Shown: piece by piece, positions 3,001-64,000 of the stretch | How positions within the stretch are numbered: position 1 is the first letter of the stretch | Layout: every line of letters starts with the position of its first letter | Source of the DNA: Pegea sp. RAD2-039 | Taxonomy: Eukaryota; Chordata; Thaliacea; Salpida; Salpidae | Assembly: GCA_034620365.1 (NCBI GenBank) | Contig: JAQGEQ010000204.1 | Span: 1-64,000, forward strand | Direction: 5' to 3' | Length of the DNA: 64,000 nucleotides | Notes under the pieces: generated by a model | The model's database searches: none | What the model saw: only the letters and a program-made list of their open reading frames with translations | Told to the model about the DNA's origin: nothing | Made by a program: the position numbers and the translations under genes

Positions 3001-6000
3001 AAATGTTGTGCTGAATGTGTAGAAGATACAGATAGCTGCACTGATACGAAAGGAATAATTCACAGTGTAAGATTAAATCATTTCTTAACATTTTAGTTGT
3101 ACTTTTTGATTTGTTTAACATCGACTGCTCGATTACTTTCAGTTGTGGGAAACATGGAGAAATTATAATAATTCTTGCGAAACTTGTACATGTACAACTA
3201 ATGGGGTACTGTGTGTAGAGGATAAATGCGAAGCAATTGTTCCAACCTGTAAGTCCGATGAAATGTTGATAACGAGAAAACACCAATGCTGCAGCTCTTA
3301 TGAATGCAGTAAGTCACATTTACAACCTTGTTTACATGTTAAATTCAGCCTAATTTTTTCCTTAAAATATTTTTTACATTCTTTAGATTAAGTAACTATA
3401 CCAGTTTATCTATAACAGTAGAATTCAGTCTCGAAGGTAGTTTAACTTTTATTTACAAAAATGGATTTCAAGAGTTGATTGGGTTTCACACTTAAATCCC
3501 GAGTTACAGCCTATTATTGCTTAGAATATTAAGCTTAAAAAACGCTCTGCGATTGTCTAGTGTTTACCAGGTCTTATGGCTATTGTTGCAACGATTTTGA
3601 CTCAGACTTAAACGTAGAGTAAAAGATCAACACCAGTAAAGTTCCTTTTCACTCCTAGTAATAAATAGCTTAGAGTTAGAATAATACTTTATTGTGTTTA
3701 ACACTTTAATAAACTATTGATCTATCTTAATTGTAGAATGTGACACAACCTTATGTGAAAGTTCTATACCTGTTTGTGAGGACTATCATATAGCTGTAAT
3801 CACAAATCCAGGTGATTGCTGTCCTCAGTATGAATGTGGTAAGTAATTTACTTCATTCTTCTACAATGCTTTATTTAGTCAGAGAAATTAAATCTAAATA
3901 ACAATAAGTTTAAACATACGAAATAGTTTAATTATTTTAATATCATAAATAAACAATTTTACATTTTTGTCAGTTTGTCGATCGGATCAATGTCCTGCTA
4001 CACCAACATGTTCTTTCAACGAACGTAAGGAAAGAGTAAACTCTGAATCTGCTTGCTGTGGACTGTATGCTTGCAAACGTGAGTCTACTACGATTATCAT
4101 TTTTAGGTTTAAAGCTATTTTAGAAGCTTTTTTTTCAAATCAATCTATCTTATCTTCCTAAAATTCATATAATATTACAAATTTGAAGTTTTGTTAAATT
4201 GTATTAAAGTAAATTGAGACCTAAAAGAAAAGTTTAAAAATGTCAAATTGAATATTAAAGCAATTGGATGCACTGATGAACACGGATTATTCCATGAGCT
4301 TGAAACAACTTGGCAGATGACAAATGATTCATGTCAACAATGTTCCTGTTTGGCCGACCAAACAATCATGTGCAAGTCACGTGGCTGTCCAGTAATTAAT
4401 AAACCAACTTGTAGCGATGGAATCGAGCCAAGCATCATTTATGACGTTGATGGTTGTTGCCCAAGTTACATTTGTAACTGTGAGTAATTTTTTCTAACCC
4501 ATTGATCGTAAAAACTCATATCTGTTTAAGGTTGAAAAAACAAAAAAAATTCGATACTATACTTGTATGAAATTTCGTTTAAATTAAAATTGATGAGAAA
4601 TTAAATTTTCTATTTAAAATTGTTAGTTATTTGTCGAGGATATGCCGGAAGCAGTCGAGTTCGAACTTTCGATGGTGAAAGTTTCGCTCGTTATTGCCCA
4701 TGCTCTCATGTACTTGTCAAAGATACTTTTGGACTCAACTTTGAAGTGACTGTTGAGAAGCAAGGTTGTCAAGGAGGATTCTGTACTAATGCTCTTAGCT
4801 TTACTGACAAGTTCACGAAACAAACAGCAAAGATTTACAAGGATCACAATGTAAGATATAATTAGACAAAAAAGTTCAACAAAATAAATTTGTACAAGTA
4901 TTTGTTTGATTTTTCTCATTTATATATAATAAATTTACTTCCTAAAAATAAACAAATGTTATTTGAATTGTAGATTGATTCGGTAGGAGGTTCAGCATTT
5001 GACATTGTACAAAATGGTCATATCGTTACCTTATCTCAAAAAAGCACAAATGTAAAAATGGTGTTTGATCGTCTTCAAGATAGCTGGTCAATTGAGGTAC
5101 CAGCTGCATTTGCTGGTAAAACTGAAGGATTGTGTGGTATGGCTGATGGTGATTCAAGTAACGATTTCTGGATTGCTGGCTATCCATCTGAGATTGAGAG
5201 CTTCCTAGAATATTGGTTGGTTGATCCAAGTTGTAAAAATGCTGTAGCAACTGCAAGTACACAATCACAACAACAGCTGTGCAAGTCCTTATTTGAAAAG
5301 AGCGCTTTCGTCGAGATGTCACAAGTATTGGATGCTTCAGATTACATTGCCGATTGTGCCAGTTACGACATACCAGATGGAGATTATATCAGTTCTGATT
5401 GGGCTGGATGCTCTGTGTTTGCTGCATTTGCTGAAGCAGCTTCACGTGCTGGTAAATGTGTAGAATGGAGAAGTGACAACTTCTGTGCCTATCAAGGCTG
5501 TTCAATAATTGGAGCTACTTATAAGGCTTGTGCATCAAATGTTCCAAAGACTTGTGAAAATTTCAAAGCCTATTACGCTTTGAATAAAGAACATAATAAA
5601 GAAGGATGTGTTTGTCCTGATGAAAAGGTAATAAATTATATAAAAGTCTAAAAAAAGTTAACCAGTAAAATAAATCAAATATCTACTTTTTCTTCAGGTC
5701 TTATTAAATGGAAGTTGTGTAGCTACAACACAATGTCCTGTGTGTGTCGATGAATCTGGTCAAGGACGATTTAGTGGAGAAAGATGGCAATATGCAAGAG
5801 ACGTTTGTACAATTTCATCATGTTTACCAGATGGCACTATCACTCAATCACAAGTTACTTGTACATCTTCACCATCTTGTAGCGATACAGAAGTATGTTA
5901 TGATTTCATTGACAAAACAAGTCGATTTCAGACAAAGAAATATCATAATCTTCACTTCGTAGACGCTAGCTGTGATGAATGATGATCAGTCATGCTGTCC

Positions 6001-23399: not shown

Positions 23400-24014
23400 T
23401 TATTTGATACAAACTAATTTAATTTTCTTTCGACTTTTTCTGTCACACGGAATACTCTTCCACATTTTTCGGTGTCCTACGAATGAACATTGATCTTCTG
23501 GACGTGGAAAGTTGATCTTCCAATGAAGAAACGACAATTTGTCGTTGTTTATCCATCGCCATTTATTTTGATCTAATTTTCGATTTAATCCTGAACAAAA
23601 AGTCCTGCTCATAAAAGTGACCACGTGACCACCTAAGTTATGCCCACCTAACCAGAAAGGATATCTTCCAACCAGCCTCCATAGTTGCTTCAGTTCTTTA
23701 CGATTTTTGATGGATACAAGAGAAGCTGAATAACTTTCACGGCAAACCCTAGATGCCAAGTTCCACGATTTCCCATTTTCATCTTTTTCTTCGCTTATAT
23801 ACAAACATCTGGAAGTAATTGAATGAATCGAACAAATCAAAGAAATCATTCCCAAACCTGCCACTAAATGCGACCCAGCCCTCTTCACATTGCACATTAA
23901 GCCCACTGACATGTCGAGGTTGCCAAGCAACCCATCTGTTGCCATCACATTGAACCAATCGGTGTATCGCGCTATCATAAATGATGATGCCTCGCTTGGT
24001 ACTCACGCATTTGT
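23400..24014 (-). other. C-type lectin domain and linker ending the FREM1-like protein
   Basis: The last exon (23400-23808) and the preceding one (beginning near 24014 and ending at 23858) join across a 49-bp intron. They encode [14 protein letters not shown], a short linker, then a lectin fold: CLYIS, W..A...[30 protein letters not shown], and DQCSFV...W..IPC near the end. A 39-bp GT-AG segment between the LGG and LNRKLDQ blocks (about 23.60-23.63 kb) is in frame both spliced and unspliced. Splicing it gives the spacing closest to the family. Canonical calcium-binding EPN/QPD triplets are not obvious, so sugar binding is doubtful. Confidence 0.8.
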
Positions 24015-46000: not shown

Positions 46001-47786
46001 GTTGAAACAAATTAATCGCTCATATATCTACTAACTACACATTTTTATCAATTCAAAGCTACAAATGATCGTATTTCTAATTGTATTTAGCAACAAAAAT
46101 GTGTCAACATCTAATTGAGTAAATTTAATTAGAGTAAGGTTAAGTAAGTAACCCAGAAATGCAGCATGACGTAGCTGTACTACATTAAGCAGTAAACTAC
46201 TTGATCACGTTGCAAGTGTCTGGCCAATGTCGACACAGATGGCTGAGCATACAGCTCTCACCTTACACAGAAAAATGAAAAGAAGAGAATTTTTCCAGTA
46301 TTTTACTTTACTAGAAATTAGAAGAGCAAATTATTGGCTTTCAATTATTAACATTAGCTTAATAATAGCGATAACAAAATGGAGGGTTTTAGCTGTGGTC
46401 TTAATCGTTATTAGTGGGTCAAACAAAATGTTACAAGTAGTCGATAAGTTAAAAATAAATCTGACTTTTATTTTGAAATGACAATTTGTTGAAAAAAGCA
46501 TTTAATAAATTGAATTTTCTTTAACTACACAAGTTGCTTTTTTAAAGACTCAAGCACTGTTTGTTTTTCATGTAGTAGTATTTATATAGTTTTCACATTT
46601 ATTTACATTGAACATTTTCAGTAAGTATGTAAAAAAAGTTCATCTTTACAAAATGACATTTTTAAAGTTAAAAATTCTTTCTTAAAACCTTTTTAGAAGT
46701 AATATTGAAATAGAAAAAGCTCCAAACAGCTGTAATGTGAACCCAAACTCAGTTTCAGTTGCGGTCTAAATGACATCAAAAAGTTCCCAAGGGCAAGCTT
46801 AGTCAGCAGACTACCTTAAATGCTTTCTATTCATTCAAACACTTTTCATTATTTCAAATTTCCAAACAATAAAACTTCGAAGTCAAAATGTTGCCATTTC
46901 AAAATCAGATTTATTTATAAAGTTAGAAGCAGCGTTTTTAGAAACCAATTATCATTGAATTCACGCAAGTTACTCATCACCTAAACGACCTACATTCGAC
47001 AACGCTTTTTTGATACTACTACAAACATATCTAATCAGTTTATTTTATGTTAAAATCACAACCTATAAAAGATGATATGAAATACTCGACTGACAATTAT
47101 CTTCGCCAAACAAAGACTTCATCACTAGCGTGGATATAGTAATCAACCCATGAGCTACCCACAGGGGATTGGAATTTGTCTAGACCTTGAGCGGCAAGTA
47201 CAGGAGTGTATGTGCCTTATGCCCGCGGTGACGTGTTTATCGGCGGTTATTTTGTGGTTGGAATGAACGTTTCCAACAGCTCTATTAGAAAATCAACTTC
47301 AATCACTTATTGATTGTGAAAATGGGAAATCTTCACAATTTGCCAATGAACATTTTCGAACTCTATCTACACTAACATCGTCATCATCGCCGCAGCTGAA
47401 AAGCTTTTGAAGAAAAATCAAAATGATTTTTATTAAACAGCATTTATTAGAAGTCTATTTCAGAATTTCTCAAAAAACGAAATAATTATTCATACACATT
47501 CGTACAACATCATTGTTCGATAAAGTGAACGCAACTAGTTGAACAGATTCCACACAACCACCAGCTTCTTACTCGCATTCAATCAATGTTTAAACCAAAT
47601 TGTCCAAATTAATTCAAGTAAAAAGTACAATTCAAACCAGCTACTTGATGTTGAATGGATGAAGAAGACATTAAATAAATTGCTGTTAGATTAAGAGAAG
47701 AAACAAGAAGAACTAAAAAACAAGATCAGATCTAAACATCAGTGGCTTGTTGGGTGATAGATCCCACTGCTAGGAGGCGAGAAGTG
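37018..47786. other. 10.8-kb AT-rich intergenic region
   Basis: This region separates the 5' end of the FREM1-like gene from the 3' end of HUWE1. It is dominated by A/T runs and I find no exon chain. The 84-codon plus-strand frame at 46227-46481 has no recognisable domain. Two short stretches, about 46150-46270 and 47140-47290, are richer in GC and unexplained. TTTATT at 47429-47434 is a possible HUWE1 poly(A) signal on the minus strand. The left end must contain the FREM1-like promoter, but no element stands out. Confidence 0.6.
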
Positions 47787-49185
47787 TCAGGCAAGTCCGA
47801 ATCCTTCAGTGCACTCAGTGATAGCAAGTAGTAGTCGCTCACGGAGCTTGTCGTAGGTCTCATATGCAGGTAAATCAAGTTGGTTGAAACTGTAGAAGAG
47901 ATGGTTGGTTAGTTGGTGCTTCAGTTGGTAGGCAACCAGTAATGAGTTACCATGTGTGAGCACAAGGCAATCGAGATGTAGATCGGTCGTCTCGATGAAT
48001 CTGGAACTTTTGTGTCCCTGTCATACCCTCTAATGCAGCAAAACCTTGCAAGGGTACTTTTGATGTACCTAGAAAGACATGAGATGAATTGATAAGTGAT
48101 CAGGACATCATCAGGAGATTACCAGTTGCAAACTGAAGAAACTTAGCGCGTTGAGCTTGATCGAAGGAACGAAGAGCTCTCCAAAACCACTGAACTTGCA
48201 ACGAATGAGGTTGGTACTTGTGGTATTCAGTGTTAGCTCTCAAATCATCGATATCAACATTTGGCAGTCCTAAACACACCACAAGTAAGTAAAGAGGGGA
48301 TGGTAGATGGTAGGAGGAAGTACCTGATATTAGTAATTCCAACTCTTGCTCATCAAAGATTGAAATCAAACGTTTAGGAATGATCTCGTAAAAGCCTTCG
48401 AGGAACGCGCTGTCATAGAAACACTGTTACTTGTGGCAACAGGGGCATGAATGGCGCTTACGCGAGTTGCTTGGTGATGGCTCCCGTCATCTTCTCCTGA
48501 CAAACCAGGTACACGTATTCTCGTTTGCTCTTCTCAGTCACTAAAATATTTCTTCCATTTTCCTTCAAATCACGAATCTCTGTTTTGCCGAACTCGTTCA
48601 CCTAGCAACGTGATGACGTCATCAATAAGCGCGAAATCGGTGCGAAGAGGTGACAAACCTCGATACAGAAGTATAAATCGCTTCCGACTGTTTCGAGTGG
48701 GTTCTCGAGCACGTAGCAGAGACTTTTGGCAAATTCGAAATCTTCCGATTCCATATCAGTGTACTTGACGGGTTTGCCCAAAATATGTTTGTAAAAGGAG
48801 CGCGTGAAGTAACACTCGAGAAGCTTGTTGTCATAGACCGCCTTGGCAACGATGCGACCCACAAACTGCAAAGAAACGAAATGCAAATGGACCACAAGCA
48901 AATGGAGCAGGCACAACTAACCTTGAAATATGACAGATGGTTGGAGTTGATATTGGAAAAAGGGTTGATGGTGTAGGTGCCATGATCACCAGGAGAGGTC
49001 TTGAAGAGGGCGTAATTGGGGTTGAAGATCTCACGAGAAATGACCAGATACCACTCCCGGAGGACCCCACCGGCGTCCTGACCGTCTTCACCGTCAAATA
49101 CAATGTACAGACGAGATCTTAGCTCCGCTGGAGATCTTCGATGTAATTCACGGAAGGAATCCTCAAATAGATGCGATCGACGCAC
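47787..49185 (-). other. HUWE1: HECT catalytic domain of HUWE1
   Basis: The exon 48622-49185 region starts the domain with [16 protein letters not shown] and [17 protein letters not shown], followed by [20 protein letters not shown] and [15 protein letters not shown]. The last two exons are 47951 to about 48071 and 47787-47889. The catalytic cysteine, in the HTCFNQLDLP context, is encoded by a TGT codon split by the 61-bp intron 47890-47950: TG in the upstream exon, T in the last. The cysteine accepts ubiquitin as a thioester before transfer to substrate. All expected blocks are present, so the ligase should be active. Confidence 0.95.
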
Positions 49186-52100
49186 GCGAAGCGTGACGTC
49201 ATCACGACGAGTTGACGAATCTTCAGTTCGATCTAGCTCCTGTTCATTGAATCATGTCATTAAGTGATGACGTCATTGATGACGTACTTGTCGGAAGTAG
49301 CGACGTTTGACATCGAAGTCGAGGACACGAGTGTGGTCGGTGAGGACAGCAAATGGTCCTTCGGACAGTGCCACAGTGGATTGGCGCAGAATCTGGTTGA
49401 GGACAGTTCGATGTGTCTCTGCAAAGAAGGCAGTGAAGTGAATTAGTAAATGGGGCGTCTGGGGGTCTTACCAGCAAATCGTAGAAATTTCTGAGTATTG
49501 AGAGGCATGCTTGGATCCACAAGTGATGATTGAGATGAAATAGAAGCTGTCGATTCCGAGTGAGCTGTGGACAAATGGTCAGGTACATATGGACATGTTG
49601 ATGGTCGTGGACTACCTGCGGCTTGTCCTGGTGAGCCTGGTCGCTGGTCATGTAAATGGGCTAGTAATAATTCACGATTGTCAACTTCAGTGTTCTCGTT
49701 GCTAGGCGATGAACGCTTCTTGTCACTTGAATGGACCAGAAAGAAAGCTTCGACCGCTGGCTGTGGTACAGTTGTGGTCAGATGGACCATTTGCAAGTGG
49801 TGAAATTACCTGTAGGACCAGGACAGCGTGTTGGTCATGACTACGAGCTAATTCTTTCAAACAGTTGCCAAGTACTTCCCATAATCCATCCAAATTCAAA
49901 CGCTCGCTCAAATTATTTACTTCTGTCAACAATTAATTGGTTGCTAATGGTTACCAGCAGCAGGTGGCAGCAAATATGGACCAACCTTCAGATAAAGTTG
50001 CTGCTCGATCTGATTGGCTTCCAGCAGAAGTTGAAGCGTTAGAAGTTGATGGTTGTGATGTGGAAGCGATAGATGCAAGGCGTGTGTTCATACGCGCGTT
50101 CATACGCGATCGCGAACGATTTGTTGCTGGTTGGATAATATCTAGAAGGACCTCAGCATCAATCTGTGATGCCGAGAAGTTTCCACCTTCAACAAGTAGA
50201 TGTGAGCAATTTTGAGGGGGGGGAGGGGGGTACTGACCTATCCCGCGCCGCCAGCGTCGCAATCGGCTTTGAATGTTGCTAGGTTGCGTGATGCTGATGA
50301 TCGGATGTCCTCCTCCACCGCTCGCCGCTTGTTGTAGTTGAAGGATCACTTTGAGGATTCGTAAGAAGAAAGCCTGGTCAAGAGTAAAAAGATGAAGACA
50401 CAGATGAAGATGACCTGATCACTGACTTGACGCGAAGTCTTAGTAGTGAGTGGTTGCATGGATGGAAGTTGAAGCTCGCGACCAATCTTGCGAAACTTCT
50501 CTTTCGCTGATAATACGACTGATCGTGATTGATCAAATCTACGAGATGAAGATCAGATAAAGATGTTTGGATGATGAAAGCAGGATCTTCACCTGTTCAA
50601 TAATTCTCCTTTTGTTGATGAGGATGCAGGAGCAGATGAAGATGTGTTGGAGGAGAGATGCATCTCGTTGTAGTTGACAATTTCGTTGTGAAGTTCACCA
50701 ATTTGTTCTCCTAACATTTCACCCAACTTCTGAGCACCTATTTACAAGGTGTCAAACCCCGTGGATGTTGCTAGTGGCAACCAACCTTCGAGAAGTAATG
50801 TGATGATGAGAGATCGAAGAGGAACAGCTGAATTGCTGAGTTGAAGAAGAAGAGCGGTTGCATCCTCTAATCCTTCTTCGGAGCACGCGTGACTCGTCAA
50901 CACGCCGACTGCCACCGATAACTCTTCTTTCATCTCGATTCCGCTGTTCGAAGTTGTATTTGCTGATGTTGATGACGTGTCACTTCGAGATGGCGGAGAA
51001 GAGGTTTTTGGGACTTCGGTGGTAGTTGAAATGGAGCCATGAGATCGCGACGAATCGGTGGTGTTGGTAGTTGCGAGAGTTGCTGCGTTACCAACAGTAC
51101 TCGTGTTTACAGTAGCTGCGTTCGCACTCATTGTAGCTGTACTTTCACTGCAACAATTTGGTCGTTTGCTGAAATGCGCGATTTAATGAAAGAACTCACG
51201 CTGCGCTCGATGAAGTATCTTCAGCAGCAGGATTACTATCAGATAGAGGATGTGATGATGAAGAAGTCCCTCCTTCACCTGATCCTGCTGATTGCTTGGA
51301 TGATGATACAGGAGGAGCAATATTTCGGCCAATTTGTGAAAGTAGTCTCAGCATTCGATCAGTTAATTGTTGGCTGCGTTTGACAACAGGATGGGACAAC
51401 ATTTGCATCAGCAGTGCCAGCCATGACATGGCCAACTGGTCAGTGCTCTTCACGTATACTGGACCTTGTACAGGGTGTTCATCTGTGGACAAAGTGGTCA
51501 GTACCAGTGGTCAGGGCAAGTGTGGACAAACTGACAATCGATTGTAGCGGTCGAGTGCCGACTGCTGGCCACAATTTTCTTTTTATGGACCGGTGAAGTG
51601 CCATCTAAACGCATCAGTATGTCCCAGAAGTCACTTTCTACATCAAGCCGACCACCTAGCCACAAGTATAGTTAGTAAGAGTTGTTGGGCAGGTGGATCA
51701 GACCACTGACCACTTTTCTGCTGTTTGAATTGTTGTAGAAGAGGAGAAGCGTTGAGGAAGTCGGCAGGGAAGATCTTAGAGAGGATCGTGAGAGCGTCGA
51801 TGGCGTGACGACATACAACTGGAGCTGCTTGTGGATGGATGAAGACCTTCCGATTGATCTTGATCCCTGACTTGCTGCGTAAGCTATTCGTTGCCAACTT
51901 CTCGACCTACAAATGACTGCTTAGTAACCTTAGTTGACGATCACGTGATGATGTTACTTGGAAGATACTTGCACGTGATCCAAGTGCTCCTTCAAGACGA
52001 ATCGACATCCAGGATGTGTTTCGCGATGTGCTGGTTGTCATGGAGTGCTCTGAGTAGAGTGTAGATGGAGCATGGGAGAGTTTTTTAGGGATCAGTTTTT

Positions 52101-55100
52101 GGAGTTTAGAGATCGATTTTGAAGGAGGGGGTAGGATTGTTGGTGTTGTGGATGTATCCATAGGATGCTGGTCGAGTGTAGAACGCGCGCGTGTTTCACC
52201 AGCACGTTGTAATATGGACACAAGCGTGGACACCAACCATGTACGCGTGGCACTATGGTAACAAACATTTCGAAAGATGCGATGAAGCACAGTGGTGTTG
52301 AGATGGCCGTCCTCGACGAACAGTAGAAGCAACAAACACGACAACGACTCGTGGTCGAGTACTTGACGCGATTGAAACGTCTGGCTGGTCGGATTTGATG
52401 ACGTCATAGGTGGGCGGATACTGTGACGTCGTCGAAGACTGGACAATGAGCTCAAAGTACCCCAAGGAGGCATGGGACCATCCATGAACCCTGATCGGTG
52501 ACGAATTCGGGCAGCACCTGTGGTACCACTGGCATTGGCGCCTCCCGCGTGTCGATAAACGTGACTCTAGGTGAAGAAAGGCGTTGTTAAGGTGCTCTAA
52601 GTGGAGGCGGGAAAGAACCTGATAGAGACGTTCCGCTTGTGATCTGAGATTCATCGCTTCTTCGGCCAATTCTTCGGACAACATCGCGACCAGGGACTCG
52701 TCCATATCAGCAAGGACAGTTTGTCGCAACTCAAGAGGAAGAGTTTGAATGAAGGAGGTGGGATCGACTTGCTGCTCGTTGCTGGTAGGTTGTACAGTGG
52801 TGCGTGACTACATGTGATTGGTTAGTTGAGTGTCACTCATATGATGACGTCACTGCTCACTCGTTCGCGCCGTTCTTGTTCTAACACTTCTTCCTGGATA
52901 TTAGGAGGAAGAGCTGCGAGGAACTCAGCACTGACTCCACTTCGCTCCTGGGAGCTACTTCCAGCATCAGCTGCAGATTCACCAATCCGAGATCTAGAGA
53001 GTTGCTCCCGGATTACTTCTTGCCGGATGTCAGCTGGCAGAGCGGCCAGGAAAGACGGGTCCACACCCTCCATCACTTGTCCAGTGACATCTGGGTCTTG
53101 TGGGACAGCAGCAGAGGTGGCAGGAGGTAGGTGATCGGGGGCTGATGGAAGATACAAGTTGAAGAAGGTATAGGGTTGATGAAAACCGACCACTAGATGC
53201 TTCGCTCGTCGTTTCACCGGTTTCCATAGCTTCCGGTCGCGGCTGGTCGCTTACTGTGGTCAAGTCCATTGGAAAGGGCAGCATCACACCATCTAGACAA
53301 CAATTGGTCACAAGTTGATGACCAGTTAGGACAGTGGACGGACCTGTAGTTGCAGTGACAGTTGCTTCCTCGGTAGAAGTTGAACCTGAAACGAAGCGAA
53401 ATTAGAAGCTACGTCATTAGGCGATGACGTCACTACAGATGTCGACAGCATCGCGAAGAAGTCGCTATTGGAAGTGAATTAGAGACAGCTACAAAAAGCT
53501 TACTAGGAAGTAGAGAAGGGGACGGTTCGTCGTCGGTTGTTCGATTCAAACTGAAGCTGAGACCTTCCAATTGACCACTGACAGCTAGCAGTGACGAGCT
53601 GGCCTGTTGCAAAGCGTTGATGGCAGGTGCCAGTTGAGTATCTGCGGGCGGTGATGACGTCATAAGCAAACTTGATGCTGATTGGTTGGAGTAGCAAGTT
53701 ATCGATGAGTAGTGAGTGATGTGGGAAGGTAGTGGAGGTACTGGTCTACTTACGATGGGGCGAGGGGTGCAAAGTGGTTACGATGCCGCGGAGCTAGAAG
53801 GTAAAACAGCCATCTCCTTCGGTAGTAGCCGATCAATTATTGCCACCACCAGGACTATATTACCTTCTACCTCACGCGGAAGCGACCAGCGACGAATTGT
53901 GAAGATGATGGTAGCGGTAGTGGAGGATGTCGATGTGGAGACTAGTCGTACAAGCTAGTAGGCTGATCAGTTAACACCGGGCATCAAATATTCCAAACTG
54001 ATTTAACCTACTACCTCAGTACGAAGTAGCCCATGAGTAGGTGGTGTAGGGGGAGGGAGGGTTGGTTCGTGATTGGTTGATGTTGGTGGTGCATGGCACA
54101 AAAGTGAAGGAGTAGGTTATATGCTAAAAGAGTCAACAACCAGCCACCAAACCACCACATAACCTACTACCTCAAATTCGTAAACATGCTAGCTCACATG
54201 GTTGGTTGCTAAGCTGTCTATCACCACGCATGGTGCTTGAACTGGTGTGTAGTGGTTGCTATGGTGCTGGAGAGATGGTAGATTTTGCAGTTATCTCCAG
54301 TAGTTCGTAAAATATTGTAACAAACTAAGAACTACAAAATCCACTACCTCACCCAGGCAACCACGCATTCAAACTGATTCGATTAAACGCTGGTTGTCAT
54401 GGCACTGCTACAATTCAGTAACACGGTGGCTGGCTGGCTGCTAGTCGCGATGCTGTCGACGATGACGAGATGATGGAAGCGTACTTACTTGCAAGTAACG
54501 ATGGTGAATCGGGCCTGGTTGGTACTGGTGTGTTGACCGGTGTGGACATATTTGGTGGCGAAGTCGCGTCCTCGATGTGCTCTAACTATTGATGACGTCA
54601 CGTTAATCAAGCAATTCAACCAAACACACTTCACCAACTTGTTCTGACGTCACTGAAATGGCGTGGGAGGACGTGACACCGACAGACGAAGCGGACGTGA
54701 CAACAACATCATCATCATCAGCAGCAGCAGCAGACGAAGAAGCCGCAGAGATAGTGGAATCGTCGCGGGTAGGCGATGAGGTGACGGGCTGTGGTTGAGC
54801 TATTTCATCTTCTCTCTCGCGTTCTTCTTCTTTCTTCATCTCCTCAGCTCTGAGACGATTCTCTTTGGATCGCTTCCGCTTCTCGCGTCGCTCACCGATG
54901 TCATGGTTACGATGCATGAGAACTTGATCGACGATTTCATCTTTTACCACTGCTCATAAAAAGCGCGATGAAGAAGCGCGATGAGGGGTAGGAGGGAGGG
55001 GGATGAATCGAACAAATAGCGCGCGACTTACATGTGACGCAGTCATAGAGACTCTGTGAGTCGAGGACACAGCTTTCTTCAACCCATCGACACAAGGCAG

Positions 55101-58100
55101 GAGGGACAGCCTCAGGGACCAGGGCAGGTGGCAAGTTAGTGGAAAGTCCATGTTGAAACAAACAGTCCTGCACATAGAAGAAAAGTGAATTGTGGACGTT
55201 TGGACCAGGGACAACTGACCAGAAACATGGCATCAATGAAGTCACCGGAGTCGTTGGGTAAGTCATTAACTACCACCTGGGCACGACCACCACCTTCACT
55301 ATACAACGAGTTGCTCAGATGAAGGATGTCTTGTGCAACAGAAGTCCCGAGAAGTCTACCGATGCGTATCGCGTTTACATGGCTGATGCGCGGTCGTGTG
55401 GCAGGAACCGACCTCTGCAACACCATTGGTGGTGTTCGCGGGTGACGCGATCCAGAATAGTGTAGATGGATGGTGTGGTTGGTCATTTGGTCGGATTGGT
55501 TGCTTCCGGCTTGGTTGGTTGTAGTCAATCGTGAGTTAGTCGAGTTAAAACCAGCGCGCATGACGCGATGTGACCAGCCATCTGGTGACGTGTTACTAGA
55601 AGCAGTAGCAGCGACATTGCCATGGGAACGAGCCACCGATGACCCACTGTCAGTGACAGTCGCGTGGTTGGCATGACGAACAAGTAGCGGATGACAAAGA
55701 GCAACTTGATTGTTGTCATCTGAGATCGCATTTGCTACGTAATGTAAACAGATGAAAGAATGTAGAGATGGATGTGGGACAAGTACCTGAGTTAGGCGGG
55801 TCATTTCGTGAGTTGGTATTGGACGAGTAGGGATAGATAATGTTGCCCATCCGACGGTTGTCCTCGATTAGAGGGAGGATACTTGGGACATTTCGGTTGA
55901 CATTTTGAAGTCCACCAAAAATATCTTCAAGTTGAATGAAGAGTTCATTTCCAGCCATATCCGGAGCCATCAGATCATAGACGAAAGCGTCGTAATTGAC
56001 TGAATCGTAATCATGACGTTCACCTACATCACATATGACGTCATCACATGTACAACGATGACGTCATCATACCTTCATCATCATCTATTTCTTGAGTATC
56101 CATATCTGATCCTCCATCATCGTCATCAAGTTCAGCTTCATCCTACAAACATGTGATGACGTCATCTTCAATCTATGACGTCACAACAACTCACGCTAGG
56201 ATCATCGTCGTCGTCATCATCTTCATCATCATCGTCGTCGTCATCATCATCATCTTCTTCCTCAGCTTCTTCATCTTCATCCCCATAAACTGTTGAATCT
56301 GTGTTATGTCCGTAATCATTGACATCATCATCTTGACTCGAAGCTCCATTGTCAGCTGACGGGGTTCATCAACGATGATGACGTCATTAAGAGCGCGTGA
56401 CTTACCTCCGACTTGTTCTTCGCTGAGCTCTTCATCTACCTCACTAATTGTTTCTAGATGATCAGATAAAGGATCATATGATCGATCGCTATCAATCATC
56501 GACGCGTTTCGCTGTTCATCATCTACGTCACAATGTAAGCTTACGTCAGATGATGACGTCATCGATAGAGCTACTCACGATTACGATTTTCATCAGATCC
56601 CATCAAGACAGAATCGATTTGGGAATCGAGCTCAACCCATTGCTGCAAGAAACAAGTAGATGACGTCACGATGCTAAGTGTCATATTGACTTACTTCTTC
56701 ATCATCGTCGTCATTGCGTCGATCATTATCACGTGAACCAGTAGATGGCGCTGTGATAGGAACACGAAGAGAAGTAGATTGGAATTTGTCACTAGAGGAT
56801 GCAGATTTCTTATCATCACCACTTGATTTATGACTGACACTTGACCATCTCGTCAGAATCTAAACCATATAAAAACCATTAACAACCAGAAAACACCATA
56901 GACGACCAGAAAACACCATTAACAACCAGAAAACACCATTAACAACCAGAAAACACCATTAACAACCAGAAAACAACATTAACAACCAGAAAACACCATT
57001 AACAACCAGAAAACAACATTAACAACCAGAAAACACCATAGACGACCAGAAAAGCATGCTGTAATTCGAGTGCACCTCTAGTGGTCGAAGAGCGTTGTTG
57101 ATGGTTTCAGACATCTCAGATGACCCAAGGTCAATGAAATGGATGACACGGGCAAGGTCAGCGGCCAGTCCACGTCTGACCATCAAACGTGGCATATATC
57201 CACTATTATGTTCAGGTCCAGTATTGTTTGTTTCGCGATTTCTTCCACCAACTCTATTTGTTGAATGATTAGAACTTTTAGTGGTGCATTCGATTATGGT
57301 CCTGAAAACAACAGTTGGTGACCATTCTGTGGTTGCTCAGTTACCATCACAACTCACGCCGTCATCTCAAGTAACGCGCGAAGCTTCAAATGTTTCTCTT
57401 TGGATTCAGGAAAGGTGGCCGCGCGAGACAAAGCTGCTTTCATCTCAGAAACCAGGATTGCATGGATATCAGTGACCCCAGTCCCAGGTAGAGGAGCGCC
57501 GTGCGTGTATGACGCAGCAATACAAGCGAGAAGTACGCGGGCCAGAGGTGGACATTCTCGGTCCCATAAATCGTTGCCACCATCGGTGGGCTGGACAGAT
57601 ACGTAACTGGTCACTAACCATCTACAATCAACCAACTATCACTAACCAAGTCCTTCGAGGGCGAATCGATGACGTCAGTGGACGCAGATGCCTGTTCAGT
57701 TGTTGGTTTGTTGGCATCGGTGGTTGTCTTGGCAACAGATGTTGATTGACTGGTCCTTGGAACCAGTAGATTGTCAAGAATGAAAGCAATCGCTGAGCAA
57801 TCCTGCAAGCAACGATGATGTAGATACAAGTGCGACATGTTAGCGTGGTTACCTGGGTAACGAGAGTTCGATCGTCCATCTTATATTGATGATTAGCAAC
57901 AAGTGAAGCACAAACAGGATAAGATCGAATCAGCTCAGCGAGAAGTCTCAAAATTGATGATTTGATGACAAGTCGTTGTTCTAGGAAGCATCGATGTCAT
58001 CTAATGACGTCACAAACGCGATTACTACTCACCTTCATCTTTGACAGGAGCCGCTGTTGAACTTGAACCTTCACCCACCGATTCTGTAGTCTGATAAAAA

Positions 58101-61100
58101 CAGCAATGACGTCATCATCCCGATTGTATGACGTCATACTTACAGATGTTGATGCAGTAGGAGGCGATCTCTTCTCGATCAGAGCATCAAGCAACAAGCG
58201 GATGATGTTCTTCACTGAAGAGGACACTTTAGACGCAAGAAGTGGAGGTGGTGGTGGGGTCTTCTGGGGGGCACACACTACTTGTTGGACAGCTCCGGGA
58301 CTCATCAAATTGGTCTCCTCACTTTCGACATCTAGATGTGATGAGGATCATATAAAAGTCCTCATATGACGTCATAGTTACTTCTGGACATGTTGTCGGG
58401 CAACTTCACCCGCAAATTGTCCAAACAAACACGCGTGTAGATGGCGCTGTTGTGACAAGCAGCTGGAGCGAGAGCGCGAAGCATGTAGTTTAGCTCTTGA
58501 CTCCCTGTACTATGACGATTGACACCACAACTTGAATTTCCAGCCCCATTCTCGGCTACTGTTCTAATTGACTGTGGGCCACAAGTCAGCCACTAGTGAA
58601 CTACATCTGGTCATCAACTTACTTTTTCCATGACACTTTGTAATGTGTCGTCATCTTCGAAGATGTGACGTATGAGTAAAGTGGCAAGAGTCGCGAAGCC
58701 GATGAAACCATGACGACGACGAAGTTGTAACAGGGCAGCCGGGCCACCCAAATCTGCAAACATCAAAGCGCGTTCTTGCCCACCTTCTGGTCCATTGCGG
58801 GTCAATCTGCATTGGACAAATGGTCAGCATATACAAGTAGGACAAACAAGGACGCAAACCAACCGTAGTAGAAGCCTCATGGACGAGTGAAGAGTGTCAG
58901 CGTCGACTGGATGGTGTAAGAAGGTTGTACACGAGTGTACTAAGCTGTTGTAGTTTTCTTCTGTAAGATTAGCGTTGGGGTGTGAAAGCACGTGACAAAT
59001 AGCGTCATCAAGTCGCGTCAGCATACGCGATTCCTTCGAAGCCTCATTTTCCACTGCTAAATATCCAGTCTCCATTTGAGATGGTTTTTTAGAAGGTGCT
59101 GGACACAAGTATGGTGTGAGATGGTTGTTGATGGTCGGTTAGTTGTTACCTTTCCATTTACTGGTTGATGTAGTAGCTGGTGTTTCAGCTGCTGGTTCAG
59201 TATAAAGAGCCATGATTGGACGGCGGTTACCAGTTTCTTCATTGAATTGGATTAATTGATGGAAATTAATGAGATATCGGCGACGTCCGGCAAAAAATCT
59301 GTCATAAAATATTGATCACGTGACTTTGAGATCGAAACGCTAGTAATTGTTTGAGAAGATTTTCACCTTTGCTTTTTCAAATCACATTTCAAATCTTTAT
59401 TTTTAAATTGAACTTATAAATCGCGCCATAAAGCCACGTGACCATTTTAATCATTGGTGATTGCATAACAAGAAAATTTGAAAGTAGACGGTAATGAGAA
59501 AAGGAGATTTGTCATTGGACAAGCTATTAGTGATTCCAACAACACTTAGCAATTAACCAATCACAGATGTTGATCAAGTACAAAAAACTTGTCTTAACTA
59601 GCAAATAGTTTGAAATGTGATGATGAAGCAGTTGATGGTAATTGGACAAGTTGATGAGTCCCTATCAAACATCAATTAGCTGATGATGTGCTTCGGTTTT
59701 TAGTGTTCACAATTTATAATTTTCTAATCTATTTTTAATCTTTCATCACTCATAATAACAAGACACATTTTAACACTGATGTTTGCTAGAAATGATCAGG
59801 TGAACTGTGAGTGAAGACCCGAGGTGTAGGAAAACTGTTCGACGGGATATATCCACCATTTTGAGATGACGTAGATATTGTGATTGCAAATATCGTGATG
59901 AAAGTTTGCAAAAGGAAATTGAAAGATTGAAATCATATCAATTGTTCTTCAAAAATTTATAGAAATCAATTATTGAAAAAAAAATCGTTTCTATTAAAAA
60001 ATACTGAAATTGATTAAAAGTTTGAGAAAATAGATGTGCTTATATAAGATGTTAGAAAAGTAGTTTGCAAAATCTAATCGCAGAAAATAAATCTCACTGA
60101 AGACTTCGCTGATGACGTTTATATTTCAGTTGAAAATAAATCGAAAAAAATTGAAAGATTCTAATCTAAGTCTCGTAAAAGTCTCTCAATCGATTAGTTA
60201 TCATCGAAATATTCTAATAACTTGCAACAACAAAATCAATCTGTACAAGAAGAAAAACACAACAACAACAACAAGCTGAACACCTCTAATACCTACAATA
60301 CAACTGAATAGCTGACAATAATGAACTGCATCTAAAGAAAGCGTCGAAAACGCTGAACAAACCGAACATTTATAAGTTGCCAGACAGCGCTTACAGTGGT
60401 TGAATGGAGAACGGCGGTTACAAGTTAGGTGCTTGTTATACAGAAATCCCTATCATCATACAAGATCTGATTTGAGAGGTAAAAGGAAGATGTATTTGAT
60501 CATTGTGACTGAGAGATACATTTACAAGTGCTTCCATCATTATCACCGGTTACTTTCAACTATTTGAAACTTGCGTAATACAAGTGACTTCCTTTTAGTA
60601 AGAAATCAAATTAGTGGGTTCCATGTAGCAACATTCAGATGTATATCCATCAAGTAGTTTGAATATTTGGAAGTATTTGTATGAGTCGAATTTAAATGAG
60701 GGTTTTGAGCTAAATAAATAATTTCCGCCATTCAAAGAAGGGCAAGACAGACAGACAGATAGCAGAAGGCGGTTTGTTGGTTGGTAAGTGAACTACAAAT
60801 AGAAATTGAAGCGAGTAATTGAAGTTGCATCAATCGATTCCAAACCAACTCTTCGAGATCTTTAAGAATTATGAAGAAGTTGAAATAGATAAATTCGAAG
60901 TTGAAAAACTAGTTTTTGTTGCGAACAAATTTTGACTTTTCGAGATATTGCGCAATCGAATAAAAGTAGCATCATCGATGACTTTATTGTAGGTTTTGAT
61001 GAGGAAACTACTAAATTCACGAAACATCTCAACTTCTGTCACTAAATCATCTCCAATTTCTACAATTCTTACTTAAGACCATCTATATAAAAGTAATTTG

Positions 61101-64000
61101 AAAGCTTGTAAGTCTGGTCAGGTCACACCCGTTGAAACGAGAGAGAAGTTAGGAGAGAGTGAGGAAGGAAGGTTTTTCTGCAGTTTTCTTAAGAGTGGAT
61201 GTCGCAACAGATGAACACGCACGCACACACATACACGCGTGCACACGCACACACACTCAGCTGTACATTAGCGCACGCACTCGCGTTTAAAGAAACGAAA
61301 AGCACGAGTAACACACACACACCCGCGCGCACATCAAGCTGTCAGTTTCTTTTTTGGTGATTTTGAGCGTATACGCGCTCAATCACATAATTCTATGAGC
61401 TGAAGGTGCCATTAAAACACAAGTTGAAATCGAATAATTTGCTTTTAATAAACACCTGATACTTCCTTCGCCAGCTTCATATGCTTCATCTATACTTTTA
61501 TGGTTAGGAACACCATAATTACACCATTTTCCTAATCGATCGTCGAACCACTTCCATTCTCGAGTGTAACCATGGTATTTGTGCTTGATAATGGCTCGAC
61601 GACCTAGTGTGACGCAAGTTTGCTCGTACAAGTCGATAAGAAGAAGAATAGGTGAAATCCATCTGTAGAAAAGAATAATCTCAGATAAAAGAGACAACAA
61701 ACAAATAAACAAATGGAATCAGTGAAGCGTGACAGGTGGGTTCGAACGCGCTTCAAGTACCACCCCTCTTTCTCATCCTCTTCCTCCTCTTATCTCTCCC
61801 AGATCCCTGCCGCTGCTCCCAGACTAGAGAGAGACTGCCGTCTGCGGTTAGAGCTTACTGCTGATGTAAAGGTCACGTATCTCATTCAGACATGAGAGAT
61901 TGGGGAGGAGAAACTGCGAGAGACAGTGAAAGGTAGGTTACTTTGGTGTGGCAGTATCCGCTTCCATCTTCTGATTTTCCAACCAATTCACTGCTGACGT
62001 CAGCAGTTGAACAAACTTCGGGATCAGTTGTTCCTTAGCAACGATCTTTGCACACGACGCTTTCATCTCCTGCAAGTTGATGCTTTCAGCAACTAGTTTG
62101 CTATCAGCTGATCTGAAGGCTTACTTCAAACAGAAGAGCGAGAAGTAGGGCTTGAGTGGCGAGTCCGTTGGTCCTGACGTCATCAGCAAACCAGAGGCGG
62201 TTGGGGTTGTCGGCGGTGGCGTTTTCATAATCATGTTGAAGTGATGAGCAAGTTGCAGTGACCTGTTTCAACAACATCATCAGTACAAGTCAATAAATAA
62301 GGCGAGCAGCTACCCCCCTTCTCCTGTGACGTCACTCACCTGCTTGACGAGTCTTTTTAGTACATCCGTCGACCAATCAACACCAGCCCTCTTCATCAGT
62401 ACCACAATCATATCACAAACTCTGAAAGAAGATCATTTTAGAATCAAGTTGAAGTTGATCTTACGGATGAAGATCACCTGTAGACGGTTTCAGGGAGCTG
62501 GTTGACAAGTTGAAGACTTCCTTCAAAAATATTCATCGCAAACTCATCTAATTCACTCGATGACATCGGCTCCTCGTCGTCCTGACAACAGAACAAACGA
62601 TGACGTCACACATGAAAGATTAAATGATGTCGTACTTGACTGAGTTTCTTCATCTCGATCTCATCTCGCGTCATTTCGTCATTCCGTTTCTTCTCTTCTT
62701 CAAGGCGAGATTTTGCCGCCTACAACCACACCAACATGTCATCAACTACGTCATCACTTAATCGCGCTTCTTACGTCATCAACTTTGAAACCTAGTTCTG
62801 AATATCGCGGAAACCTCCACTCTTCTCTCATAATTCCCTGAAGCGGGCGATCCACTGTAAAGTCCTCGGAGAAACTTCCTTCGGGTCTTGAAGAGTCCTA
62901 ACAACCAAACAAATCGGTTGCTAGTCACCATCGGTTGCTAGGCAACATCAGTTGCTACTCACAACTGCTTCAGATGCGTTCTCGAGTGACATGGTGATAG
63001 CGCGAAGTATATCTTCTTCTTCGGTGGAATGATTCAGCAACCATTCAGTAGCAGCTTCGATGCCAGGATTCTGTGTTAACGCCAACAGCACGCGTTCTCG
63101 GCTAAAACCCATATCCATGAGCTAACGAGAGAACGATGACGTCAGCAAGGAGGAGTCATATGCGTATCTAATATGTAAATGAGCTGCTGACTTGTGTAAC
63201 ATTCGAGTTGGAAGGATAATCAATGTTGGAATGATGAAAACTCTCTCCACTATCTTCGACAAGTTGGTTTCGAACTGCTTCAGTTGGAGCTGAACTTTGT
63301 GATGGTCCAGCAACAGCTTCGAACAGAAGTTCTCTGCAAGTTACAAGTTGCGGGTCAGTGGTTGGAGGTCAGTGACAGGACTTACTCAGACGGGGCATCT
63401 GAAGTGAAAGTAGCGGTGGAGGATGCTGCTGGACATAAAATTGCTGATTTAGTAAACAATCACGTGGCGTGACGTCACTGACCGTTGGAGGTGAAGGCAG
63501 CTGATGATGACGTCATCTTTTTGTCATCTGAATCGCGCTTTTCTTCCATCAGCTTGTCTCTGATCATCTTTTCACCACGAATCAGATGACACAAAATTAA
63601 GATGACTGAGTCACAAATGCGACTGGACAATTTAGGTAGGCAACCACTGGACCAGAGATGTTGTAAGGCAGTCAACGTTTCCTGATTACCAAGCAAACAG
63701 TTAGAGGGCGTCATGGCAACCGAGAAATGCTGACCTTTTGCATTTTAACAAGAAACTTTGCAGCACTAAACGGAATGATTGGAGGTGCCCGTGACTTGTC
63801 AGAAGAATGAATTTTGGTGAAAACTAAATGGGGTGAACTCATAATATTCTTGGGGTTAACTAGACGTTCAACAAGGGACAACCAGGGTTCAAGGAAGTCA
63901 GCCAGGGTTCCTGTAATAAGAGAACCTATCAAATATTGATAGAACTATAGTGTAGATGAGAACTAACCAGGAATTTCACTTTGAGATGTAAACATATCTT
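47787..64000 (-). CDS. HUWE1: HUWE1 HECT-type E3 ubiquitin ligase, C-terminal part (5' end outside window)
   Basis: HUWE1 is a very large E3 ligase that ubiquitinates many nuclear and cytoplasmic substrates. Reading the minus strand from the right edge: armadillo-like helical segments, UBA and UIM (62963-63121), WWE (exons 61456-61662 and 59150-59298), Ser/Asp-rich linkers with an acidic tract, UBM-type repeats (about 53.1-52.6 kb), further helical segments, then the HECT domain, ending at TGA 47787-47789 with the residues ECTEGFGLA. Domain order and sequence match animal HUWE1 very closely, including [20 protein letters not shown] and [11 protein letters not shown] near the end. Dozens of exons are separated mostly by introns of 45-90 bp. 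Exceptions are the let-7 host intron 53642-54490 and the WWE intron 59299-61455. The N-terminal half lies beyond 64000. Confidence 0.96.
52600..53120 (-). other. HUWE1: UBM-type ubiquitin-binding repeats of HUWE1
   Basis: Three related segments occur in order on the minus strand: [35 protein letters not shown] and [18 protein letters not shown], followed by [14 protein letters not shown]. The FL..LP...R.EV core is the ubiquitin-binding motif repeat known from HUWE1 and some DNA polymerases. They are spread over exons with short introns. In the family they help bind ubiquitin chains. Confidence 0.85.
53786..53879 (-). ncRNA. let-7: let-7 family microRNA precursor A
   Basis: On the minus strand the 5' arm starts CCGCG, then TGAGGTAGAAGGTAA (mature at 53853-53874), carrying the let-7 seed GAGGTAG. 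The 3' arm, TTACCTTCTAGCTC then CGCGG, pairs with it over 13 of 14 positions plus the terminal CCGCG/CGCGG stem. Loop about 30 bases. It is the 3'-most member (in transcript direction) of a four-hairpin cluster in one HUWE1 intron. The mature differs from canonical let-7 at position 9 (A for T). Confidence 0.88.
53947..54023 (-). ncRNA. let-7: let-7 family microRNA precursor B
   Basis: The minus strand reads CGTAC, then TGAGGTAGTAGGTTA (mature at 53997-54018), a loop, then a 3' arm containing AACTGATCAGCCTACTAG and GTACG. The CGTAC/GTACG ends pair, and CTAGTAGG on the opposite arm matches the mature strand. The first 15 bases of the mature are identical to canonical let-7. It lies on the coding strand of HUWE1, so it can be processed from the HUWE1 pre-mRNA. 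Confidence 0.93.
54100..54178 (-). ncRNA. let-7: let-7 family microRNA precursor C
   Basis: The minus strand 5' arm reads AATT, then TGAGGTAGTAGGTTATGTGG (mature at about 54153-54174). The 3' arm ATATAACCTACTCCTTCACT pairs with it along nearly its whole length. The mature start is identical to canonical let-7. It sits about 80 bp upstream, in transcript direction, of hairpin B. Confidence 0.93.
54264..54358 (-). ncRNA. let-7: let-7 family microRNA precursor D
   Basis: The minus strand 5' arm reads CCTGGG, then TGAGGTAGTGGATTTTGTAG (mature at 54330-54351), with the let-7 seed. The 3' arm ACTGCAAAATCTACCATC followed by TCTCCAGC pairs with it, including a terminal CTGG/CCAG stem. It is the 5'-most hairpin of the cluster in transcript direction. 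Its mature diverges from canonical let-7 from position 10 onward. Confidence 0.9.
56193..56300 (-). other. HUWE1: Acidic Asp/Glu tract of HUWE1
   Basis: The minus strand encodes a run of Asp and Glu ([18 protein letters not shown]-like) made from GAT/GAC and GAA/GAG codons, seen on the plus strand as TCATCATCGTCG repeats. HUWE1 proteins carry an acidic stretch in this central disordered part. The simple trinucleotide composition makes this segment prone to length variation. Confidence 0.8.
56881..57052. repeat. 20-bp minisatellite, eight full copies plus a partial, in a HUWE1 intron
   Basis: The unit AACAACCAGAAAACACCATT repeats head to tail with exact 20-bp spacing. Variant copies GACGACCAG occur as the second unit (56901) and the partial last unit (57041), and an AACATT variant occurs at 56961-56980 and 57001-57020. 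The array fills the intron near 56860-57060, between the exon ending in the [12 protein letters not shown]-type linker and the next exon downstream. Confidence 0.93.
57848..57861. promoter_or_regulatory. RFX X-box-like palindrome in a HUWE1 intron
   Basis: GTTACCTGGGTAAC is a perfect inverted repeat fitting the RFX X-box consensus GTNRCC-N(0-3)-RGYAAC. Related palindromes occur at 62934-62946 (GTTGCTAGGCAAC) and 50767-50781 (GTTGCTAGTGGCAAC). Binding is inferred from the motif only. Confidence 0.45.
59150..61662 (-). other. HUWE1: WWE domain of HUWE1, split by a 2.16-kb intron
   Basis: The exon 61456-61662 encodes [14 protein letters not shown], then [17 protein letters not shown] and [14 protein letters not shown]. 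The exon 59150-59298 continues [15 protein letters not shown] and [14 protein letters not shown]. Together they form the WWE domain, a poly-ADP-ribose-type or ligase-associated binding module characteristic of HUWE1. The intron between them (59299-61455) is the longest in this part of the gene. It holds AT-rich sequence and a CA/CG tract, with no gene that I can see. Confidence 0.9.
61214..61332. repeat. Alternating CA/CG simple-sequence tract
   Basis: Long runs of alternating purine-pyrimidine (ACACGCACGCACACACATAC, CGCGTGCACACGCACACAC, GCGCACGCACTCGCG, ACACACACACCCGCGCGC) are interrupted by short AT segments. Such tracts favour left-handed Z-DNA and are unstable in length. It lies near the donor end of the WWE intron of HUWE1. 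Confidence 0.85.
62963..63121 (-). other. HUWE1: UBA and UIM of HUWE1
   Basis: One exon encodes [17 protein letters not shown] and [13 protein letters not shown], a UBA domain with the MGF motif. It is followed directly by [19 protein letters not shown], a UIM with the central A...S core. Both bind ubiquitin in animal HUWE1. The exon is bounded by a TAG acceptor at 63122 and a GTGAGT donor at 62962. Confidence 0.9.

Follow-up and report, generated by a model that had tools for sequence, protein, structure and literature searches.

Four let-7-type microRNA hairpins predicted in one HUWE1 intron of Pegea

The window, the whole stretch of 64,000 nucleotides that was analyzed, comprises positions 1-64000 of contig C42 in a Pegea assembly of 105.7 Mb and 387 contigs. 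Its minus strand carries a gene for which a local model, running from 56023 to 52700, has nine exons, GT-AG boundaries in 8/8 introns and no stop in the spliced frame, and the model translation matched human HUWE1 at residues 2551-3078 (phmmer, E 1.5e-36). One of the HECT-domain frames further downstream had human HUWE1 as its best PDB match (E 2.2e-30). By sequence, the UBM repeats, the C-terminal HECT domain and the top similarity to HUWE1 identify the host gene as HUWE1. When an abridged HUWE1 protein was searched against the assembly, all five matches fell inside this same gene and a second HUWE1 was not found. The features of the locus, in transcript order, are:

54489-54581, minus strand: HUWE1 exon preceding the let-7 intron (GT-AG model, open spliced frame)
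53642-54488, minus strand: HUWE1 intron with the putative let-7 cluster (847 nt, phase 1, GT..AG; from the nine-exon model)
54264-54358, minus strand: hp4, first of the four to be transcribed; predicted 5p mature 54351-54330, TGAGGTAGTGGATTTTGTAGTT
54100-54178, minus strand: hp3; predicted 5p mature 54174-54153, TGAGGTAGTAGGTTATGTGGTG
53947-54023, minus strand: hp2; predicted 5p mature 54018-53997, TGAGGTAGTAGGTTAAATCAGT
53786-53879, minus strand: hp1, last of the four to be transcribed; predicted 5p mature 53874-53853, TGAGGTAGAAGGTAATATAGTC
53504-53641, minus strand: HUWE1 exon following the let-7 intron (AVSGQLEG aligned to human AVSSQLEG, residues ~2847-2854)
52861-53141, minus strand: HUWE1 exon carrying a pair of UBM (ubiquitin-binding) motifs (PF14377, E 8.2e-23, two stretches, frame 52840-53250)
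47790-48913, minus strand: HUWE1 HECT-domain exons at the 3′ end of the host gene (PF00632 in three frames)

An earlier note on this DNA had placed the hairpins on the HUWE1 coding strand, and the GT-AG model, the human alignment and the UBM and HECT domains bear it out. The intron limits it gave, 53642-54490, stand at the start, and the end is corrected to 54488. Its description of a genome with short introns also holds, as the model's remaining introns, seven in number, measure 52-118 nt, vs. 847 nt for the let-7 intron.

The 5′ arm of every hairpin opens with TGAGGTAG (starting at 54351, 54174, 54018, and 53874 on the minus strand), which puts the seed GAGGUAG at nucleotides 2-8 of the predicted 5p arm in 4/4. 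The mononucleotide Poisson expectation for TGAGGTAG in an intron of this length is 0.006, giving P ~5.5e-11 for four; the minus strand of the window has two further copies, at 56443 and 22614. Folding of each interval, a check that had been set beforehand, yielded stable hairpins, with z from -3.5 to -7.3 when flanked folds are included: shuffle z-scores for hp4, hp3, hp2, and hp1 were -6.30, -4.59, -4.22, and -7.28 (0/200 shuffles as good for each), and -6.62, -4.62, -3.50, and -5.73 with flanks. Random pieces of the same lengths folded as well in 0, 0, 1, and 0 of 600 cases (same order), these pieces being drawn from the minus strand at 47.5-63.9 kb with the intron excluded. In all four hairpins 18-20 of the 22 nt of the predicted mature strand are paired. 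The minimum free energies on the minus strand (-38.0, -28.2, -28.7, and -48.5 kcal/mol for hp4 to hp1) are lower than those of the plus strand (-22.9, -14.6, -20.5, and -33.5), and this greater stability of the host strand in 4/4 fits selection on host-strand RNA.

The let-7 family, RF00027, was the top-scoring Rfam family at each of the four loci. In a 1-kb search hp2 scored 47.0 bits (E 2.5e-8), hp4 46.9 (E 2.8e-8), hp1 43.1 (E 2.8e-7), and hp3, the weakest, 26.2 (E 0.0092). None reached the RF00027 gathering score of 53.5 bits, which is a curators' threshold and not a biological feature, and detection was via the E-value threshold only. Other assignments were tried and rejected: mir-3596, of the let-7 clan, gave three plus-strand mirror matches, all scoring below let-7 at the same place, and the weak minus-strand matches of hp4 to mir-3613, mir-548, and MIR6288 were each below the let-7 score there. 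The hairpins are only 49-61% identical to one another, and their MAFFT alignment misplaced the 3′ arm of hp3. With the seed in 4/4, the folds and RF00027 as top family, the coordinates and let-7 5′ arms that the earlier note had proposed for four hairpins are upheld, and as predicted from sequence these are let-7-type microRNA genes in one HUWE1 intron, on the host strand.

No other let-7 was found in the assembly by four scans, each of them incomplete (an exact 14-mer, RF00027, the let-7a 22-mer, and TGAGGTAGTAGGTTATGTAGTT). The exact 14-mer, TGAGGTAGTAGGTT, occurs at three places, two of which lie in the let-7 cluster; the third, at C76:400716, is by eye a coding stretch and was rejected. 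The RF00027 search of the genome, which scored 57 of 15,419 first-look candidates and was also positive in 6/14 control genomes, returned six matches at E<=10, namely the four hairpins (hp4 7.0e-7, hp3 0.233, hp2 6.3e-7, hp1 7.0e-6), L007, and L009. L007, an AT-rich inverted repeat (C258:2138698-2138779), scored above hp3 with 33 bits (E 0.0036), and L009 had an E of 0.909; both lack the let-7 seed and were dismissed as let-7, and neither had an Rfam match at gathering score. On genome-wide score alone hp3 would not stand; what carries its candidacy is the let-7 seed together with the hairpin fold and a near-identical let-7 member in the ascidian Halocynthia, which is taken up below. The let-7a 22-mer was found nowhere in the assembly with up to three mismatches (reversed-pattern control, one place). 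With the same tolerance TGAGGTAGTAGGTTATGTAGTT was found at 48 places (control, 49), of which two are hp3 and hp4 and the remaining 46, lacking the seed and many of them closely packed in arrays, were discarded. One such region, C74:269937-298761, consists of arrays with recurring TGAAGTAGTTGATTATGTAGTT and similar words, which are noise in the let-7 pattern scan. Both pattern scans miss hp1 and hp2, and diverged members elsewhere could likewise escape. A degenerate let-7 pattern had no match in viral_contigs and one in genome_contigs, on a cyanobacterial MAG, where there is no hairpin (z +0.59, +1.02) and the match was put down to chance. To the extent that such incomplete scans can tell, the whole detectable let-7 complement would thus be packed into one intron.

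The closest comparison is with the S93 let-7 cluster of Halocynthia roretzi as listed in Table 1 of PMC5399378. Against the members listed there, hp4, hp3, and hp2 differ from their nearest counterparts by 2, 1, and 1 of 22 nt, each pairing with a different member of the cluster, and hp1 has no close counterpart, the nearest having four mismatches. The cost of the one-to-one matching was 8, compared with a mean of 12.9 after shuffling, and 5/5000 column shuffles were as low. The three member types common to both animals suggest that, on the listed sequences, the cluster is old in ascidians and not a recent expansion, and the counterparts for 3/4 members together with the low identity among the hairpins likewise point to an old multi-member cluster. 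As far as the Table 1 entries go, it appears to have been reshuffled since, because the order of members differs: the UGGAUU-type member opens the cluster here and closes it in Halocynthia. The earlier note's view of the cluster as tandemly expanded therefore fails as a feature of Pegea, 3/4 members having counterparts in that table; "tandemly expanded" would be true only as ancient history. These comparisons also bear on whether the hairpins are decayed or unprocessed relics of let-7, for which one could cite the Rfam scores, all below the gathering score, and hp1, which lies at least 4 of 22 nt from every listed Halocynthia member. We consider this very improbable, given that the TGAGGTAG 5′ end and stable stems are kept in 4/4, that three hairpins retain their member identity with the Halocynthia genes of Table 1, and that, with no other let-7 in the four incomplete scans, a loss would leave the animal without a detectable let-7.

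That the genome was probably tunicate, as the earlier note had it, is confirmed on contig C14. A match to cellulose synthase (TIGR03030) occupies C14:72150-72770 (E 2.0e-29), with a weaker portion beginning at 71914, and a GH6 domain (PF01341, C14:74494-74718) comes 1.7 kb later on the same strand; the score of the former, 106.8 bits, is below the cut-off of 699.1 bits, which is normal for a single exon. To our knowledge cellulose synthase combined with a GH6 domain is tunicate-specific among animals. From this proximity of the two matches, which may belong to one gene, and from the let-7 variants, which agree, the genome looks tunicate. A COX1 search of the assembly with the standard code had no match, and the mitochondrial genome seems to be absent or hidden by an altered code. 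By base composition the HUWE1 region including the let-7 intron (47500-64000 and C42:64001-70000, the latter L010) is mostly at 38-51% GC, with a dip to 31-34% at 59.5-61 kb, and the sampled rest of the contig mostly at 20-36%; the lower boundary of the high-GC region is the HECT end of the gene and the upper one lies near 70 kb. Such a step could be read as an assembly artefact, a GC-rich HUWE1 piece of another organism having been joined to the contig. We give this next to no weight, because the increase in GC is a gradual one, spread over 46-49 kb where the HECT end of the gene lies, the assembly has no second HUWE1, and three of the let-7 types match those tabulated for an ascidian. Elsewhere in the window, 2-2830 on the plus strand encodes a protein with long near-identical tandem repeats and then a cysteine-rich stretch, and further cysteine-rich frames reach to ~6.7 kb; judged by eye, this is a large secreted protein of mucin or von Willebrand type. 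A 200-codon frame at 23403-24002 on the minus strand resembles, by eye, a C-type lectin domain.

Human HUWE1 presumably lies on the minus strand. On that assumption, the earlier note's statement that human let-7f-2 and miR-98 lie in a HUWE1 intron on the host strand is in agreement with published passages, which place both within HUWE1 (PMC5133852) and give miR-98 and let-7f-2 at chrX 53556223-53556341 and 53557192-53557274, respectively, on the minus strand (PMC4742387). A second source has miR-98 at 53583184-53583302 (PMC4530307), and we infer that the former coordinates are GRCh38 and the latter GRCh37. The position of HUWE1 codon 3070 (R3070H; GRCh37 53578038, PMC12191266) then lies 5.1 kb 3′ of miR-98. 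Codon 1743 (G1743R) is given as 53583851, the build being unstated in the passage (PMC11618689); we took GRCh38, since GRCh37 would put the base between miR-98 and let-7f-2, and in GRCh38 it is 5′ of let-7f-2. The two codons as reported thus flank miR-98/let-7f-2, and the human intron would lie between them. The Pegea intron (phase 1) corresponds to human residue ~2822; the linker there aligns poorly and placement is of low confidence. The intron lies just 5′ of the AVSGQLEG exon and 5′ of UBM1. Linear interpolation between the two published codons also puts the human intron at codon ~2822, although the method is crude and we treat the agreement as coincidence. R2981 lies in UBM1, and a tentative hg19 coordinate for it would put the human intron 3′ of UBM1; if this is right, the human and tunicate introns are different. 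It is possible that the two are the same intron, as on the positions reported ~2822 is within the human bracket of 1743-3070.

The shared host may be explained by descent or by coincidence. By area, the chance of landing in HUWE1 is ~2e-4 (at most ~22 kb of 105.7 Mb, an estimate in which the upper end of the gene was taken from the GC profile and is provisional beyond ~56 kb), halved when the strand is considered. At ~1e-4 for a sense-strand landing in this genome two independent landings would be unlikely, and common descent is favored. Independent entry of let-7 into HUWE1 in tunicates and vertebrates, the coincidence being favored by a large and broadly expressed gene, would be in keeping with the uncertainty as to intron identity in the human sources, with a survey of host pairs conserved in human, mouse, and chicken that contains neither HUWE1 nor mir-98 in its main text (PMC3675212), and with the order of member types, which differs from that tabulated for Halocynthia (PMC5399378), so that members do move. 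Against that landing chance, however, we regard it as rather unlikely. The most economical reading is that these are real let-7 genes and that their host link is ancestral, a reading that compares two lineages and to which we assign a probability of roughly three in four. A let-7 cluster would already have been inside HUWE1 in the ancestor of tunicates and vertebrates, with human let-7f-2/miR-98 as the copy still in HUWE1. The earlier note's proposal that the association predates the tunicate-vertebrate split is accordingly plausible in view of the shared host, and its limits are the two lineages and the intron question in the published human coordinates. An extension, for which we see about even odds, is that the ancestral cluster in HUWE1 was let-7-only and that vertebrates, after their two genome doublings, lost the surplus HUWE1 copies but retained the let-7 genes these had hosted. 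If true, the vertebrate let-7-only loci on chr9, chr22, chr3, and chr12 would be orphans of HUWE1, and the host link would be some half a billion years old, coupling let-7 output to HUWE1 transcription.

For intronic microRNAs, the Microprocessor excises hairpins from the intron of the host, and Dicer turns them into mature RNAs. In Pegea, HUWE1 would be transcribed by RNA polymerase II, the 847-nt intron would fold into the four hairpins, and these would be cut by the Microprocessor, Dicer then freeing 5p let-7 RNAs with the common GAGGUAG seed that would silence let-7 targets. A perfect complement of the let-7 seed (CTACCTC, mRNA strand) is present at 53124-53130 within a coding exon of HUWE1, the last hairpin lying ~0.7 kb upstream; it is the single such site in 1868 nt of local coding sequence and possibly due to chance. 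Processing motifs are unevenly represented. CNNC occurs at +17, +18, +17, and +19 relative to the predicted 3p cut and at other offsets too, a signal that appears weak on a C-rich strand, and a basal UG at -14 is found in 1/4 hairpins. A GGAG 3′ in the loop is the motif bound by LIN28 in many, not all, vertebrate let-7 precursors; it is present in hp4 and hp1 and not in hp2 and hp3. LIN28 was not recognized among six cold-shock-domain matches (ORFs inspected at 3/6 loci), and an exon-split domain could escape such a search. Unless there is a promoter within the intron itself, the output of let-7 would depend on HUWE1 transcription. If there is one, the host link would be positional only and timing independent of HUWE1. 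Ciona let-7 members exemplify microRNAs with highest expression in the adult (PMC2884542), a pattern that a broadly expressed host alone would not give; the timing could be set by a promoter separate from that of HUWE1 or after transcription, for example by LIN28. The length of the let-7 intron, which greatly exceeds that of the model's seven other introns, is also consistent with an own promoter, and the location of the cluster on the host strand within a normal GT-AG intron is evidence against it. We think an own promoter doubtful, although less so than independent entry; it is compatible with an ancient link and does not exclude the ancestral association that we prefer.

Intronic let-7 genes, let-7 in human HUWE1, and a let-7 cluster in Halocynthia are already known, and the new part is HUWE1 as a host of let-7 in a tunicate; among the papers listed, judged by titles and the starts of abstracts, we found no report of a tunicate let-7 cluster in HUWE1. 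Few animal microRNAs have been studied as much as let-7. A HUWE1 host shared by tunicates would add an independent character, one of position, by which the vertebrate let-7-only loci could be ordered, and a means of asking whether the timing of let-7 is coupled to a gene for an E3 ubiquitin ligase.

In having several microRNAs in one let-7 locus, Pegea resembles the let-7/miR-100/miR-125 cluster of bilaterians, and it is unlike it in that neither miR-100 nor miR-125 (22-mers, queried with what we take to be the human sequences) was found within three mismatches in the assembly. Relative to what we take to be human let-7f and miR-98, the hairpins hp4, hp3, hp2, and hp1 differ by 3, 5, 6, and 5 of 22 nt from the former and by 6, 5, 6, and 6 from the latter. 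The human let-7f-2/miR-98 pair is likewise a let-7 family cluster in HUWE1, on the minus strand as its host presumably is; by the published coordinates its two members are ~1 kb apart, whereas Pegea has four within 0.6 kb. From its Table 1 entries, Halocynthia has a AUGCAGUU member and an isolated let-7a-like gene, neither of which was found in the Pegea assembly. The S93 cluster tabulated there and that of Pegea have in common four let-7 genes on one strand in ~1 kb and three member types at 1-2 mismatches. Two of the matched members are adjacent and in the same order in both, with 156 nt between mature starts in Pegea and 165 nt between the listed precursor starts in Halocynthia.
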